The position numbers and the translations under genes were made by a program. Of a DNA stretch of 30,775 bases, positions 10,943 to 15,377 are shown one piece after another. The notes below the pieces were generated by a model. That model did not search any database, was not told the DNA's origin, and worked only from the letters and a program-made list of their open reading frames with translations. This DNA is from a virus, in IMG/VR virus record IMGVR_UViG_3300033992_000528, positions 1-30,775 of that record. The stretch is one strand, 5' to 3'. How positions within the stretch are numbered: the first letter of the stretch is position 1; every line of letters begins with the position of its first letter.

Positions 10943-10950
10943 TATATTTG
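10943..10950 (+). promoter_or_regulatory. -7 promoter box TATATTTG before the modification module
   Basis: A TAnnTTTG box in an AT-rich stretch. The expected transcription start, about seven bases on, falls right at the first stem of the structured leader (10957). No palindrome of the GTTAAAATTTTAAC type lies upstream. Confidence 0.6.
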
Positions 10951-10956
10951 TAGTAT

Positions 10957-11048
10957 AGTTACTGGTCTGACAATAAAGTAACTCAAGGAATTATTAACAA
11001 GCCTTGCAATGAATTGAGAAGTCAGACCCTCAAGGATTTGCAAGGCTT
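10957..11048 (+). ncRNA. Structured leader RNA with two hairpins and complementary loops (element 1)
   Basis: Hairpin 1: AGTTAC (10957-10962) with GTAACT (10978-10983). Its 15-base loop holds GGTCTGAC (10964-10971). Hairpin 2: AAGCCTTGCAA (10999-11009) with TTGCAAGGCTT (11038-11048), 11 perfect pairs, followed by a T tract as in a terminator. The loop of hairpin 2 holds GTCAGACC (11021-11028), a perfect complement of the hairpin 1 loop. So loop-loop pairing (kissing or pseudoknot) of eight pairs is possible. CTCAAGGA also occurs twice (10982-10989, 11029-11036), which allows alternative folds. The element lies 20 bases before the first gene of the module and may control termination or translation. 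Confidence 0.7.
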
Positions 11049-11068
11049 TTTTAATTTAATTAAATAAT

Positions 11069-11329
11069 ATGAACATTTTAGAAAAAGCAAATGAGATAGT
11101 AAATCTAAGATCAGAAGAAAAAGAAAGATATTACGGTCCTTTTGAAGAAGGAATGGCTAAAGCAGCCAAAATTGCATCTCTTATGTCTTCTAAGGACATA
11201 ACTACTGTTGACATGTATAATTGTATGATTGCGTTAAAACTATCAAGACAGTCATACAGCAATAAAGAGGATAATCTACTTGATGCAGTAGCTTATATAG
11301 GTAGTTTAAACAATACAATAAATAAATAA
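11069..11329 (+). CDS. DUF6378-like protein
   Basis: 86 residues. The pattern R.EEKERYYGPFEEGMAKAAKI, then ITTVDMYNCMIALKLSRQSY and DNLLDAVAYIG, matches phage proteins of the DUF6378 type: all-alpha, with conserved YG, an IT..D..... LK.SR block and a final Asp. These accompany nucleotide-metabolism genes in phages and resemble small MazG-like helical proteins, though the family has no assigned reaction that I know. It is the first gene after the structured leader and uses almost only AGA for arginine, like the rest of the module. Confidence 0.65.
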   Translation: MNILEKANEIVNLRSEEKERYYGPFEEGMAKAAKIASLMSSKDITTVDMYNCMIALKLSRQSYSNKEDNLLDAVAYIGSLNNTINK

Positions 11330-11330
11330 T

Positions 11331-12290
11331 ATGAAAAAAATAGGAATGATAGGGGTTATTTCTAACCCTGTTAAAAGTAACAATTCTCATAATGGTGGAT
11401 GGACTTATGTTTGTAAAGCTATTTTAGAAAATAAATTTAATAGCAAAATAGATATACTAAATGAAACAGATGATTGGAATAATTACAGTAATTTAATAAT
11501 AAATGAAGGGGTTAACTATAAAATTGGAGTTTACAACTTTTTTGGTGGGGTATCTGATAAGACTATAGTTAAATTACTTAAACTAAAAGATTTTAAAGGT
11601 CAAGTTTTATGTATAAATGAAATAATAGACTACAATGATATGTGTAAAAAAAGAAAAGAATTAATAGAATATAGAAATTTAAATTTTAATATACCTGAAG
11701 TAATAGAATTGGATAAATTATCTAACTATTTAGTTCTTGGTGATAGTCATTCTTTATCCGTGTTTAAACCTGAATATTGCATATCAAGAAATGATGGTAA
11801 AACACTACATGGTTTTCTTAAAGAAGGAATTAAATATTACATTCATGATTCAGTTAGCAAATTAGTCTTTTACGCTGGAAATATAGATATTAGATTTCAT
11901 GTAATTAAATATGGAATAGAATCAATTGATAATATGATTTTAGAATTAGAATCTCAGTTAAAAAATCTAAAGATAAAAGATATATCTTTAGTAGAATTGT
12001 TGCCTATAGAAAATGAAAGTAGAAAAATACCAGGAACAGGAAAGTTTAATGGATCTAACTTTAACGGAACTAGATTAGAAAGATTGGAAATGGCAATTCA
12101 TTTTAACAAAATGATCAATATGATTGCTAACAATAATAACTGGAAAGTTTTAAAATGGAATTTTAATTATCAAGAAGAATTAAGTTTTGATAATATGGAA
12201 GCAAAACAATCAGTTCATTTAAGGCCAACATCATATATGTTTGCTAATGATTTTATAAATATAGAAACTAAAAATTTATTCTCATGTTAG
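11331..12290 (+). CDS. SGNH/GDSL-hydrolase-like protein of the modification module
   Basis: 319 residues. From about residue 133 three blocks resemble SGNH hydrolases: LGDSHS (136-141) with a candidate nucleophile Ser, AGNIDIRFH (182-190) in place of the G-x-N-D block, and a late His in SVHLRP (294-299). Between them lies an unusual conserved-looking loop, ENESRKIPGTGKFNGSNFNG. Residues 1-125 form a separate alpha/beta part I do not recognise. SGNH enzymes cleave or transfer acyl esters. In this operon it could act on a base side chain or its precursor, but this is inference. It overlaps the next gene by seven bases, so the module is translationally coupled. Confidence 0.55.
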   Translation: MKKIGMIGVISNPVKSNNSHNGGWTYVCKAILENKFNSKIDILNETDDWNNYSNLIINEGVNYKIGVYNFFGGVSDKTIVKLLKLKDFKGQVLCINEIIDYNDMCKKRKELIEYRNLNFNIPEVIELDKLSNYLVLGDSHSLSVFKPEYCISRNDGKTLHGFLKEGIKYYIHDSVSKLVFYAGNIDIRFHVIKYGIESIDNMILELESQLKNLKIKDISLVELLPIENESRKIPGTGKFNGSNFNGTRLERLEMAIHFNKMINMIANNNNWKVLKWNFNYQEELSFDNMEAKQSVHLRPTSYMFANDFINIETKNLFSC

Positions 12291-13192
12291 AAGTATTTAA
12301 AACATATTACTCTAAAGCTAAAATGATGCAAGAGTTAAAGTACAAAGGCTTTAATTGGACTAAAGAAGATATTAATGATGACTTGATATGGAATGTCCCT
12401 ATATATGATGTAGTTAATAGAAGATATGCTGCATTTAGCTCTTTGTTAGAAGCTATAAAATATAAAGAAAATGACCCTAAAGATAACGGAATTTATTTTA
12501 ATAGTTTACAAGAAACAATTACAGATGAAAACTTTATTAAGTTATGTTATTTATTCAGATTGTGTGGCTCAGGAATTAATTATAAGCATAAAAAAGAAGA
12601 TCAAGAACCTTTTGGAACACATGGTTTTGGTAACTTCTGGATTGTTGAAGAATTAAAAAAAGGATGTTCATTTTATGAAGATTGGATTTCATGTATACCT
12701 GAGAATAAATTCTGTGATGTTAAAGGTTATTTACTGCCTATGATTAAAGGAGGATTACGTAACTTTATTATAAATGAAAGTAAAGAACTAACAAACTATT
12801 TAATAGACTATGTTTATAATAATAAAGGATTAGGTATAAAACAAGTTGTTGATGAAGGTAATAGTTACTTAATGGAAAGAGGTTTTAAAAGACAGAATTT
12901 TGTTTTAACAGCTTTCGCGATGGACTTAGCTGAATATTTTCCTAATATAGTTGATAGAAATAGTGATACGTATATTGGTAGTAATGCTAAAAAATGTTTA
13001 AAAATGATATTACCAAATATGAAAACTGATGAAGCTCTTAGATTCTTATGTAAAGAAACTGGAAACAAATCAAAACCTTACGATATGGAAGATATAGCAT
13101 GTGATTTTATTAGATACTTAGATAATTTTCAATCAGAAGACCACATAAAAAATAATAATAACTTAAAATATAAAAACAATGTTTCTCAATAA
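12284..13192 (+). CDS. Alpha-glutamyl/putrescinyl-thymine pyrophosphorylase-like DNA base modification protein
   Basis: 302 residues, all-alpha. The motifs FRLCGSGINY (91-100), HGFGNFWIV (113-121), GFKRQNFVLTAFAMDLAEYF (200-219) and SNAKKCLK (233-240) recall the aGPT-PPlase (amino acid:DNA transferase) family, which is related to helix-hairpin-helix DNA glycosylases. In known phage pathways these enzymes replace the pyrophosphate on a 5-hydroxymethyl pyrimidine in DNA with an amino acid or polyamine. Its neighbours (PLP enzyme, thymidylate-synthase-fold enzyme) are those expected for such a pathway. The identification is by memory of the motifs and by context; clade cannot be told. Confidence 0.7.
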   Translation: MLEVFKTYYSKAKMMQELKYKGFNWTKEDINDDLIWNVPIYDVVNRRYAAFSSLLEAIKYKENDPKDNGIYFNSLQETITDENFIKLCYLFRLCGSGINYKHKKEDQEPFGTHGFGNFWIVEELKKGCSFYEDWISCIPENKFCDVKGYLLPMIKGGLRNFIINESKELTNYLIDYVYNNKGLGIKQVVDEGNSYLMERGFKRQNFVLTAFAMDLAEYFPNIVDRNSDTYIGSNAKKCLKMILPNMKTDEALRFLCKETGNKSKPYDMEDIACDFIRYLDNFQSEDHIKNNNNLKYKNNVSQ

Positions 13193-14072
13193 ACAAATAG
13201 GTTCAGAAAACAAAGATCTTTTAAATGGTAAAAATCTAGAATATTATTTAGAACTAACTAAAAATTTTCAAAGTAGTTTTCAAGATTTTGTAGTAAAAGA
13301 AGTAAATGGATTCTTTGTAATAGATGAATCAGTTTCTAATCCAGTAGGTGCTAAAGCAAGATTTGGTGAATTATTAATGCAATTAAACACTAAGAAAGAG
13401 ATAGTTTATGTACAACCAAGGAAAGGATTTGCAGGTATTAGTTTATCTTATCTTTGTAAAAAATACAATAAAGATTTAACTTTAGTCATGCCTTCTAGTG
13501 CTAAAGCTTCTGAGCATCAAAGATTATGTATTGAATATGGAGCCAAAGCTTTATTTGCTAGAATAGCTGCTATGCCTAATGCTGGTTTAATAGCTAAAAA
13601 ATACGCAGCAAAAAGAGATGCTTTATTTATTCCTTTAGGTTTGCAACATGAATTAGTTACTGCTTGTGCTGTAAGAAGTGTTTATGATTTTTTTAAAGAC
13701 AAAGAGAAACCTAAAAAAATGTGGTGTGTCATATCAACAGGTGTTTTATCCAGAGCTTTGCAAATAGCACTTCCAGATACTGAATTTGTAAATGTTGCTG
13801 TAGCTAGAAATATTCATCAAGGAGAATTAGGCAGAGCTAAGTTTATTAGTTACCATAAACCTTTTAACGCTAAATCTGATTTGATACCTACAGAGTTTAA
13901 CTGTGAATCAACTTACGATGCTAAAGGATGGGATTACCTTAATAAATATGGTGAAAAAGGCGATTGGTTTTTTTCTGTAGCTGGAGATTCGGACAAAACA
14001 ACAATACCAGAAAGCAGCATTGATAGTTATAGAGATTGGAACGACTTAAAAGACTTTAAAGATGAGATTTAA
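13179..14072 (+). CDS. PLP-dependent fold-type-II lyase-like enzyme
   Basis: 297 residues resembling cysteine synthase/threonine dehydratase-type enzymes. SNPVGAKARFGE (53-64) gives Lys59 as the probable Schiff-base lysine. VMPSSAKASEHQRLCIEYGA (103-122) matches the usual P....K...... GA helix, and VISTGVLSRAL (184-194) takes the place of the phosphate-binding Gly loop. The usual S/T-x-GN motif after the lysine domain is RKGFAGISL (81-89), so the Asn that contacts PLP in typical members is absent. Phages with modified thymine use PLP enzymes to trim an added amino acid to an aminoalkyl group. A role of that kind fits here. It overlaps both neighbours by 11-14 bases. Confidence 0.65.
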   Translation: MFLNKQIGSENKDLLNGKNLEYYLELTKNFQSSFQDFVVKEVNGFFVIDESVSNPVGAKARFGELLMQLNTKKEIVYVQPRKGFAGISLSYLCKKYNKDLTLVMPSSAKASEHQRLCIEYGAKALFARIAAMPNAGLIAKKYAAKRDALFIPLGLQHELVTACAVRSVYDFFKDKEKPKKMWCVISTGVLSRALQIALPDTEFVNVAVARNIHQGELGRAKFISYHKPFNAKSDLIPTEFNCESTYDAKGWDYLNKYGEKGDWFFSVAGDSDKTTIPESSIDSYRDWNDLKDFKDEI

Positions 14073-14697
14073 TAATGCGACAGAAGCTTTTGAGAAGCTT
14101 TATAGTGAAGTAAATTCTTCAGGTAAAATAACTAAATATACCAAAGCTATTTTTAATATAGGTTTCTATATAGATAATCCTTTAGATAGAATTATAACTA
14201 CAGATTATAGAAATTTTAATAGTGATTATGCTGAGTTTGAATGGCAATGGTACTTATCAGGAAACGCAGATGCAACTGAAATAGCTAAGAAAGCAAAGAT
14301 ATGGTATAAATGCATGGATCAGAATGGATATGTAAATTCGAACTATGGTTACCAATGGAATAAAGGTAAACAACTTGATTATGTGATTAATGAATTAATT
14401 AAGAATAAAGATTCAAGAAGAGCATCCATTTCTATTTATGATGCAAAAGATAGGTATAATTTCGAGAATGATACTCCTTGTACTTATGCTATTAACTTTA
14501 GGATTTTAGATGATAAGTTAAATATGTCAGTTATGATGCGTTCTAACGATCTCTGGTACGGTTTTGCTAACGATCAATATTGTTTCTCAAAACTACAAGA
14601 GTTAGTAGCTAACAGGTTAGATATAAAAGTAGGATCTTACTTCCACTTTGTTAATGATTTACATTTATACAATAATTTTTTAAATAAAAACAAATGA
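14062..14697 (+). CDS. Thymidylate-synthase-fold pyrimidine hydroxymethylase-like enzyme
   Basis: 211 residues against 264 for E. coli thymidylate synthase. Key residues are present: Glu60 in EFEWQWYLSG, RR (119-120), catalytic Cys140 in DTPCTYA, RSND (160-163), Gly167, and HLY (201-203). The family makes dTMP, 5-hydroxymethyl-dUMP or 5-hydroxymethyl-dCMP using folate. An ungapped alignment puts Asp171 (in GFAND, 167-171) at the site that is Asn177 in E. coli TS; Asp at this site is the hallmark of T4-type dCMP hydroxymethylase. A one-residue gap would place Asn170 there. So the substrate is uncertain, uracil or cytosine. The operon supports a hydroxymethylase rather than plain dTMP synthesis. 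Overlaps both neighbours. Confidence 0.75.
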   Translation: MRFNNATEAFEKLYSEVNSSGKITKYTKAIFNIGFYIDNPLDRIITTDYRNFNSDYAEFEWQWYLSGNADATEIAKKAKIWYKCMDQNGYVNSNYGYQWNKGKQLDYVINELIKNKDSRRASISIYDAKDRYNFENDTPCTYAINFRILDDKLNMSVMMRSNDLWYGFANDQYCFSKLQELVANRLDIKVGSYFHFVNDLHLYNNFLNKNK

Positions 14698-14933
14698 AAG
14701 CAGTAGTTAAATCAATAATAGGTCCTTATGATGGACCATTTGAAAAAAACATAATTACTTACAAACTAAGTATTGGATTAAATGAAATAGTATGGCATGA
14801 AAATGGCTATCGACCAATGAATAACTTAGATATAAAAGTAGGAGACGTTTTAAGTGGCTTAGTTTTAAATGGAAATAAGCCTAATTATAATAAATCAATA
14901 ATAGTAAACACACAATTAAAATTACAATTATGA
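14694..14933 (+). CDS. 79-residue orphan protein of the modification module
   Basis: Starts MKAVVKSIIGPYDGPFEKNI and is predicted to be mostly beta strand, possibly a small barrel, ending LKLQL. The ATG overlaps the upstream stop (ATGA) and the end overlaps the next start, so it is a fixed part of the operon. No family recognised. Its position between the hydroxymethylase-like and MazG-like genes hints at a folate- or nucleotide-related helper, but nothing in the sequence shows this. Confidence 0.6.
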   Translation: MKAVVKSIIGPYDGPFEKNIITYKLSIGLNEIVWHENGYRPMNNLDIKVGDVLSGLVLNGNKPNYNKSIIVNTQLKLQL

Positions 14934-15235
14934 AAATGGAAAATGAATTCCAACCTATAAGGGATTGGGCAGAAGCAAAAGGTATTTTTGCTAAAGGTGA
15001 TATAAAAACGCAGTATATTAAATTGCAAGAAGAAGCTGGAGAACTAGCAAAAGCAATTATAAAAGACGACAAAGATGAGTTTATAGATGCTTTAGGCGAT
15101 TGTACCATAGTATTGGTTAACTTAGCTAAATTGGGTGGTTATAACTTAGAAGATTGTATAAATTCTGCCTATAGTGTAATAGCTAAAAGAACTGGAAAAA
15201 TGGAAAATGGAACTTTTGTAAAAAATATAATATGA
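14930..15235 (+). CDS. MazG-like nucleotide pyrophosphohydrolase
   Basis: 101 residues, the size of a single MazG-like all-alpha NTP pyrophosphatase. The metal-binding pattern is visible: Glu34/Glu35/Glu38 in LQEEAGELAKA and Glu50, Asp53, Asp57 in DEFIDALGD. Such enzymes hydrolyse (d)NTPs to monophosphates. In phages with altered DNA bases a dNTP pyrophosphatase often removes the normal nucleotide (for example dCTP or dUTP/dTTP) from the pool or feeds the hydroxymethylase with dNMP. That fits its place as last gene of this module. Confidence 0.75.
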   Translation: MKMENEFQPIRDWAEAKGIFAKGDIKTQYIKLQEEAGELAKAIIKDDKDEFIDALGDCTIVLVNLAKLGGYNLEDCINSAYSVIAKRTGKMENGTFVKNII

Positions 15236-15277: not shown

Positions 15278-15285
15278 TAATTTTG
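15278..15285 (+). promoter_or_regulatory. -7 promoter box TAATTTTG before the replication region
   Basis: A TAnnTTTG match in very AT-rich DNA, with TTG at 15258-15260 as a possible -33 element. The first hairpin of the second structured leader begins 11 bases later, as it does 7 bases after the box at 10943. Confidence 0.5.
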
Positions 15286-15295
15286 TAATAAATAA

Positions 15296-15377
15296 AGTAA
15301 CGTCGAACTTACTAAAAAATTTTATTAAAAGCTCTATTTCTTAATGCCTTTCGACGTGGCTAGAGAGATAGGGCTTT
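15296..15377 (+). ncRNA. Structured leader RNA with two hairpins and complementary loops (element 2)
   Basis: Hairpin 1: AGTAA (15296-15300) with TTACT (15309-15313), loop CGTCGAAC. Hairpin 2: AAAGCTCTATTTCT (15328-15341) with AGAGATAGGGCTTT (15364-15377), 14 pairs of which two are G-U. Its loop contains TTCGACG (15350-15356), the complement of the hairpin 1 loop. The order and spacing of the parts match element 1 (10957-11048) while the paired sequences differ, which is compensatory evidence for a real RNA fold. It lies 19 bases before the next gene. The T tract after hairpin 2 is broken (ACTTTTAAATT), so a terminator role is less clear here. Confidence 0.65.

Follow-up and report, generated by a model that had tools for sequence, protein, structure and literature searches.

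A recurrent phage gene cassette predicted to hypermodify cytosine in DNA, with an SGNH-fold enzyme in its core

The IMG/VR virus record IMGVR_UViG_3300033992_000528 (30,775 nucleotides; this whole stretch is here called the window) carries seven consecutive open reading frames (ORFs) behind a leader with inverted repeats, all on the plus strand and overlapping or abutting one another, with overlaps of 4-14 bases from the SGNH gene through the MazG gene (Table 1). Six of them make up the core of a cassette: a DUF6378 protein, an SGNH-fold enzyme, a protein of 302 amino acids (aa) that we call P3, a pyridoxal phosphate (PLP) enzyme, a thymidylate synthase (TS)-fold enzyme, and a MazG-like protein. 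An earlier note on this DNA described seven coupled genes forming a DNA base hypermodification module; every ORF was recovered where that note had placed it, and the module itself, built on a hydroxymethylase together with a DNA-level transferase-like protein and the SGNH enzyme, is well supported. We consider it likely that phages with this cassette carry a hypermodified 5-hydroxymethylcytosine (hmC) in their DNA instead of cytosine, following the scheme proposed below; the virion DNA would then contain an undescribed base.

Table 1. Genes and leader elements of the cassette region, in window coordinates.
Feature	Position	Strand	Basis or remark
DUF6378 protein, 86 aa	11069..11329	+	PF19905, 47.6 bits (cut-off 27.1); conserved first gene of the cassette
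SGNH-fold enzyme, 319 aa	11331..12290	+	AlphaFold model, structure matches, invariant blocks, phage homologues
P3, 302 aa, all-helical DNA-glycosylase-like fold	12284..13192	+	AlphaFold, VIA-align, motif alignment
PLP enzyme, fold type II (PALP), 297 aa	13179..14072	+	Pfam PALP, Lys59, STGVL phosphate-loop-like motif
Thymidylate-synthase-fold enzyme, 211 aa, predicted dCMP hydroxymethylase	14062..14697	+	PF00303, Asp column
Orphan, 79 aa, non-core	14694..14933	+	Present only in close relatives
MazG-like nucleotide pyrophosphohydrolase, 101 aa	14930..15235	+	PF03819, 31.8 bits (cut-off 22)
Promoter-like TATATTTG	10943-10950	+	Fits Bacteroidota TAnnTTTG box
Leader with two interleaved exact inverted repeats, A-B-A'-B'	within 10943..11066	+	Script search
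Leader stem A, GGTCTGAC with GTCAGACC	10964-10971 with 11021-11028	+	
Leader stem B, AAGCCTTGCAA with TTGCAAGGCTT	10999-11009 with 11038-11048	+	
Second leader, stem A, ACGTCGAA with TTCGACGT	15300-15307 with 15350-15357		
Second leader, stem B, AAAGCTCTAT with ATAGGGCTTT	15328-15337 with 15368-15377		

The cassette recurs among viral contigs. Four scans of 2.9 million contigs, one with a protein sequence and three with profiles, yielded 262 candidate stretches for P3, 231 for the SGNH enzyme, and 142 for the PLP enzyme. The exact order DUF6378-SGNH-P3-PLP-TS-MazG is found in 106 of the 190 loci that were fetched (duplicates included). All six core genes are present in 68 of 94 non-redundant loci from uncultured phages, many of the others being short contigs or contig ends, so that the cassette is more than a chance association. 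The conserved flanking genes are those of replication and packaging (DnaA-like, DnaB, PDDEXK, 5'-3' exonuclease, and terminase), and modification enzymes are not among them. One locus (L007, 5150-9219) is unlike the other cassettes in that its TS-fold gene, only 46% identical, stands apart, displaced downstream from the PLP gene by about 4 kb. The small orphan ORF, which the earlier note counted in the set, does exist; it is lineage-specific, confined to near relatives, and lies outside the core of the pathway. The DUF6378 protein is small and helical and probably a nucleotide-binding accessory, and the MazG-like protein is predicted to remove competing deoxycytidine triphosphate (dCTP).

The identity of the modified base is indicated by the TS-fold enzyme. 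Like the DUF6378 and MazG-like proteins it bears out its earlier label with a Pfam match above cut-off (PF00303, Thymidylat_synt, 95.2 bits against 24.3), and in phmmer searches it matches the deoxycytidine monophosphate (dCMP) hydroxymethylase of T4 (1b49, E 6e-17) essentially as well as a thymidylate synthase (6auj, 4.7e-17). In this family, enzymes acting on cytosine carry an aspartate where those acting on uracil carry an asparagine (PMC5175136). All 82 scorable representatives have Asp at the column of T4 gp42 Asp179; the phmmer alignment with 1b49 shows the residue directly, a related entry, 6l18, has Asn, and the deoxyuridine monophosphate (dUMP) hydroxymethylases of Dickeya phage JA15, Pseudomonas phage MP1412, and the SPO1-like phage phi18 have Asn in the discriminating region. 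The motifs DTPC, EWQWY, DLHLY, DSRR, and RSND align as well, retaining the nucleophilic Cys, a Glu60-type Glu, the His-x-Tyr, and the Arg and Ser characteristic of enzymes with deoxyribose rather than ribose substrates (residue roles as in PMC5175136). The nearest annotated homologue, 54% identical, is a "deoxycytidylate 5-hydroxymethyltransferase" of Bacteroides phage BF486P2. The enzyme is thus most likely a dCMP hydroxymethylase producing 5-hydroxymethyl-dCMP (hm-dCMP), and, since the discriminating Asp occurs in every scorable locus, the handle for further modification would be hmC and not a thymine derivative. The earlier note had also called this protein hydroxymethylase-like, which is supported; its comparison with the thymine pathways fails at the first step because of the same cytosine-specific residue.

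P3 is the predicted DNA-level component. Two families of the aGPT-PPlase group serve as reference points, HMUDK_hel (PF18723) and ADDT (PF18724), represented in phage PaMx11 by gp50 and gp46, respectively, along with the kinase-like gp49. Neither the window protein nor its 42-member family has a Pfam match to models of the aGPT-PPlase type, the PF18724 profile finds nothing in the window or its relatives, and the best Pfam score of P3 is a sub-threshold one to DUF5495 (22.1 against 27 bits). The AlphaFold model built with 42 relatives has a mean confidence score (pLDDT) of 92, and the first row returned for it by VIA-align is 8z2n, the 5-phosphomethyl-deoxyuridine (5-PmdU) glycinyltransferase PaMx11 gp46/PUGT (Z 10.2, 3.7 A, 201 residues, 8% identity), narrowly ahead of DUF2419 (Z 9.3) and AGOG DNA glycosylases; DNA glycosylases of the helix-hairpin-helix (HhH) type are close behind (Z 5-8.8). 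Foldseek alone lists the same glycosylases, none of them at E <= 0.001. The PF18723 protein MP1412_14 has no solved structure in the Protein Data Bank (PDB), so the fold search could meet structures of the ADDT type only. In a multiple alignment the P3 segment GSNAKKCL...CDFIRY falls on the HMUDK_hel signature GPGAxRGL...CEFDKY, of which it may be a degenerate version, and the motif GxNA...CDFxRY is closer to HMUDK_hel than to ADDT. Very distant second paralogues of P3, perhaps second transferases, occur in two cassette-carrying contigs (L140, 3952-4857; L185, 1535-2440) and keep the GPG of the signature. No match to P3 was obtained by tblastn against all annotated phages, with its profile against PDB sequences, or by hhalign against the C-terminus of a protein of Aeromonas phage 44RR (see below) and the PF18723 alignment, and a search of 84,980 genomes of bacteria and archaea found no relative. 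The hhalign comparison of P3 with L140 is circular, L140 having been part of the alignment, and carries no weight here. On the strength of the modelled fold, which is glycosylase-like and ranks narrowly nearest to an amino acid:DNA transferase, we predict P3 to be a base-flipping or transferase subunit. The protein had been called aGPT-PPlase-like; it seems to resemble that group in fold and in a degenerate C-terminal motif and may act as its members do, but we leave it outside these families because the profiles make no connection, an outcome that the earlier note had named as refuting its reading.

The SGNH enzyme is the proposed partner of P3. It has no Pfam match; its AlphaFold model (pLDDT 92) consists of an extra N-terminal alpha/beta domain (residues ~1-125) and a domain (~126-309) that matches SGNH esterases (Foldseek E 6e-5; VIA-align Z ~13), and the catalytic GDS, G, N, and H blocks are all present, with GDSH, GNID, and a C-terminal His296 invariant in the family. 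The fold assignment is therefore genuine, as proposed before, and the enzyme would catalyze ester hydrolysis or acyl transfer. To our knowledge, and in agreement with the earlier note, no known DNA base hypermodification pathway includes an SGNH enzyme. Homologues are found in 43 phage records, mostly T4-like phages of Aeromonas, where they are annotated as hypothetical; those of Aeromonas phages 44RR2.8t and 25 and Tenacibaculum phage PTm1 are 28-35% identical, and all three phages also encode TS-fold enzymes. Four arrangements join the SGNH enzyme to a glycosylase-fold or related protein: its gene adjoins that of P3 in the window, the two are fused in contig L154, ORF233c of 44RR fuses it to a weakly HMUDK_hel-like C-terminus (E 0.0036; 4e-4 in a second search), and in contig L232 it adjoins a clear PF18723 protein (E 1.3e-16), with a C5-cytosine methylase on its other side. 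The last contig (45-4960; binned as Pirellulales, with replication-type genes) has a myo-inositol-1-phosphate synthase, the HMUDK_hel protein, the SGNH enzyme, and the methylase in a row, possibly another variant of cytosine hypermodification. A further contig (L233, binned as Thermoleophilia), which looks like a T4-like phage, encodes P3, PLP, and SGNH proteins in that altered order, together with an enzyme of the T4-gp42 type and an ORF resembling a deaminase nearby, and provides an independent link of this trio to hmC.

The PLP enzyme had been described as lyase-like, and its membership in the fold type II PALP family is supported: the window protein scores 29 bits, below the cut-off of 35, relatives pass with 37.3 and 44.8 bits, and Lys59 (the PLP lysine) and a glycine-rich loop are invariant. 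Among annotated phages, its nearest relatives belong to Erythrobacter phage R6L and Microcystis phage Mae-JY30 and share Lys59. In R6L the PALP domain is part of a ParB/N6_N4-methylase protein (gp1), whose methylase motifs appear circularly permuted, and in Mae-JY30 the relative adjoins ParB genes; this fusion and this neighborhood indicate that PLP enzymes of this type are found repeatedly at the DNA-modification loci of phages.

These observations can be combined in a scheme of five steps. The TS-fold enzyme would make hm-dCMP, as its active-site residues strongly suggest. MazG, perhaps with the DUF6378 protein, would deplete normal dCTP, and kinases not found here, probably those of the host, would complete hm-dCTP for incorporation. 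P3, a glycosylase fold presumably devoid of base-excision function, would bind the DNA and flip out hmC, as its fold, motif, fusion, and adjacency suggest, and its SGNH partner may then transfer an acyl or aminoacyl group to the hydroxymethyl group, the position in the scheme that is held in thymine pathways by a P-loop 5-hydroxymethyldeoxyuridine (5-hmdU) DNA kinase. We propose the SGNH enzyme in the place of the kinase because no DNA kinase was found and because the SGNH enzyme is the constant partner. Finally, the fold type II PLP enzyme could make an amino-acid-derived donor or trim the attached group. The product would presumably shield phage DNA from host nucleases. Our confidence differs among the parts: hypermodification based on hmC is quite probable, a two-part DNA-modifying unit of P3 and the SGNH enzyme has about an even chance, and acyl transfer as its specific chemistry is a tentative proposal. 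More tentative again is the detailed version, in which P3 and the SGNH enzyme act without a kinase as a two-part acyltransferase on DNA bases: P3 flips hmC out of the helix and the SGNH enzyme forms an ester with it, possibly that of an amino acid, with the PLP enzyme as the source of the donor.

Several points weigh against this scheme. The window and ten related contigs of 30-37 kb, all of which may be fragments, yielded neither a 5-hmdU-type DNA kinase (PF18748) nor a polymerase of the PolA type. The kinase search recovered a sub-threshold PaMx11 gene as a control, and phmmer searches of all cassette loci with MP1412_13 and PaMx11 gp49 gave no kinase match. No gene accounts for the entry of hmC into DNA, an hm-dCMP kinase not having been specifically sought; either host enzymes supply the hm-dCTP and the polymerase or the contigs are incomplete. 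As no PolA was found for the window phage, a host polymerase may copy the hmC-containing DNA. The lead of 8z2n over DUF2419 in the P3 fold search is less than one Z unit (10.2 against 9.3), in a range, under about 13, where VIA-align warns that helical proteins possibly share an arrangement only, and the HMUDK_hel and ADDT profiles miss P3 just as the P3 profile misses both families. SGNH enzymes are hydrolases more often than transferases. A residual alternative is that the TS-fold product is 5-hydroxy-dCMP instead of hm-dCMP; a TS-superfamily 5-hydroxy-dCMP synthase is known from Mosigvirus (PMC13390438). Lastly, our literature search gave no measured modified base for any phage with these genes, no report of one in Aeromonas phages such as 44RR, and, in a search largely outside subscription papers, no description of SGNH enzymes in phage hmC modification or of acylated phage DNA. 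The module had been called complete-looking; its core is recurrent, but its completeness is doubtful for lack of a 5-hmdU-type DNA kinase, unless the SGNH enzyme replaces that step.

Of the alternatives, the one that survives best transposes thymine-pathway chemistry to cytosine. Here a kinase, either the host's or one that escaped detection, would phosphorylate hmC in DNA, P3 would be a true amino acid:DNA transferase that displaces the phosphate and leaves an amino acid joined through nitrogen, the PLP enzyme would trim the product (for example, to 5-aminomethyl-deoxycytidine), and the SGNH enzyme would hydrolyze or acylate a late intermediate. We regard this as possible, though on the doubtful side: the top solved match of P3 is a glycinyltransferase, PaMx11 gp46, which that phage couples with a flavin adenine dinucleotide (FAD)-dependent enzyme, but no HMUDK-type kinase occurs in the window, the ten relatives, or any cassette locus, the P3 motif leans to HMUDK_hel over ADDT, and the constant partner is the SGNH enzyme and not a kinase. 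Modification at the nucleotide level, with 5-hydroxy-dCMP or hm-dCMP elaborated before polymerization and P3 in another role, appears unlikely given that the fold of P3 is that of a glycosylase-like, DNA-acting protein; such a route would fit the sharing of an operon with nucleotide-level enzymes (TS fold, MazG) and the placement of 5-hydroxy-dCMP synthase in the TS superfamily (PMC13390438). Still less likely is that P3 is a true DNA glycosylase excising bases (such as host cytosine or unmodified C) for base exchange or for attack on host DNA. The HhH-type glycosylases do follow closely in the fold search, but the top row is a transferase, the cassette has no base-donor enzyme, and SGNH enzymes are paired with PF18723-type proteins in other phages. 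Least likely of all is a uracil or thymine derivative, as the earlier comparison implied: TS-fold enzymes include dUMP hydroxymethylases and all characterized ADDT/HMUDK_hel systems known to us act on 5-hmdU, but the T4-type Asp, unlike the dUMP enzymes, and the independent contig with the T4-gp42-type enzyme speak for cytosine.

The leader reported ahead of the operon is real as sequence, with two interleaved exact inverted repeats; the interleaving of the stems suggests a pseudoknotted leader RNA. A second leader (15278-15377) of other sequence and the same A-B-A'-B' topology precedes a further gene or operon, and both leaders (10943-11048 and 15278-15377) sit behind a TAnnTTTG-like promoter box. 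Rfam searches gave no match for the first leader (10957-11065) or for the second. A similar-looking leader lies upstream of DUF6378 in contig L120.

Among known systems that modify cytosine, the CmoX/CmoY pathway, which makes 5-carboxymethylcytosine-glycine (PMC12783734), likewise uses a cytosine handle for an amino-acid-type addition, and PALP relatives occur in ParB/methylase phage loci; unlike that pathway, the cassette has no recognizable CmoA, CmoX, or amide ligase, and its handle would be made by a TS-fold enzyme. In the modified-cytosine phages found by MetaGPA (PMC8670742), the modifying enzyme is likewise accompanied by TS and PRA-PH/MazG-type domains, but it is a carbamoyltransferase where the cassette has the SGNH enzyme and P3. 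With the hmC pathway of T4 (gp42 dCMP hydroxymethylase, gp56 dCTPase, and glucosyltransferases) the cassette shares the dCMP-hydroxymethylase residues and a MazG-type pyrophosphohydrolase; no glucosyltransferase was recognized in it, and P3, the SGNH enzyme, and the PLP enzyme are present instead. Phages 44RR2.8t, 25, and PTm1 resemble it in their homologous SGNH and TS-fold enzymes and, in 44RR, in the fusion to a weak HMUDK_hel-like domain; the PLP family of the cassette has no relative among them, and no P3 match was found in their genomes in a search made without a positive control. The cassette itself recurs in many uncultured phages, and the SGNH link reaches cultured Aeromonas phages such as 44RR, in which the proposal could be tested. 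A close parallel in organization is the thymidine hypermodification of Pseudomonas phages such as PaMx11, M6, and YuA, which combines a dUMP hydroxymethylase, the 5-hmdU DNA kinase (PF18748), HMUDK_hel, ADDT, and tailoring enzymes. There, too, a hydroxymethylase, a DNA-level glycosylase-fold protein, and a tailoring enzyme are clustered; by contrast, the hydroxymethylase of the cassette is of the cytosine type and not an Asn-type dUMP enzyme, an SGNH enzyme stands where matches to PF18748 and PF18724 are missing, and a PLP enzyme takes the place of the FAD-dependent one. If our reading is correct, the logic of thymine hypermodification (a hydroxymethyl handle, a flipped base, and amino acid chemistry) would extend to cytosine, with an SGNH enzyme for the kinase; and if the enzyme is indeed an acyltransferase, acylated or aminoacylated bases would represent hypermodification by an enzyme class that, as far as we know, has not been seen to act on DNA bases.

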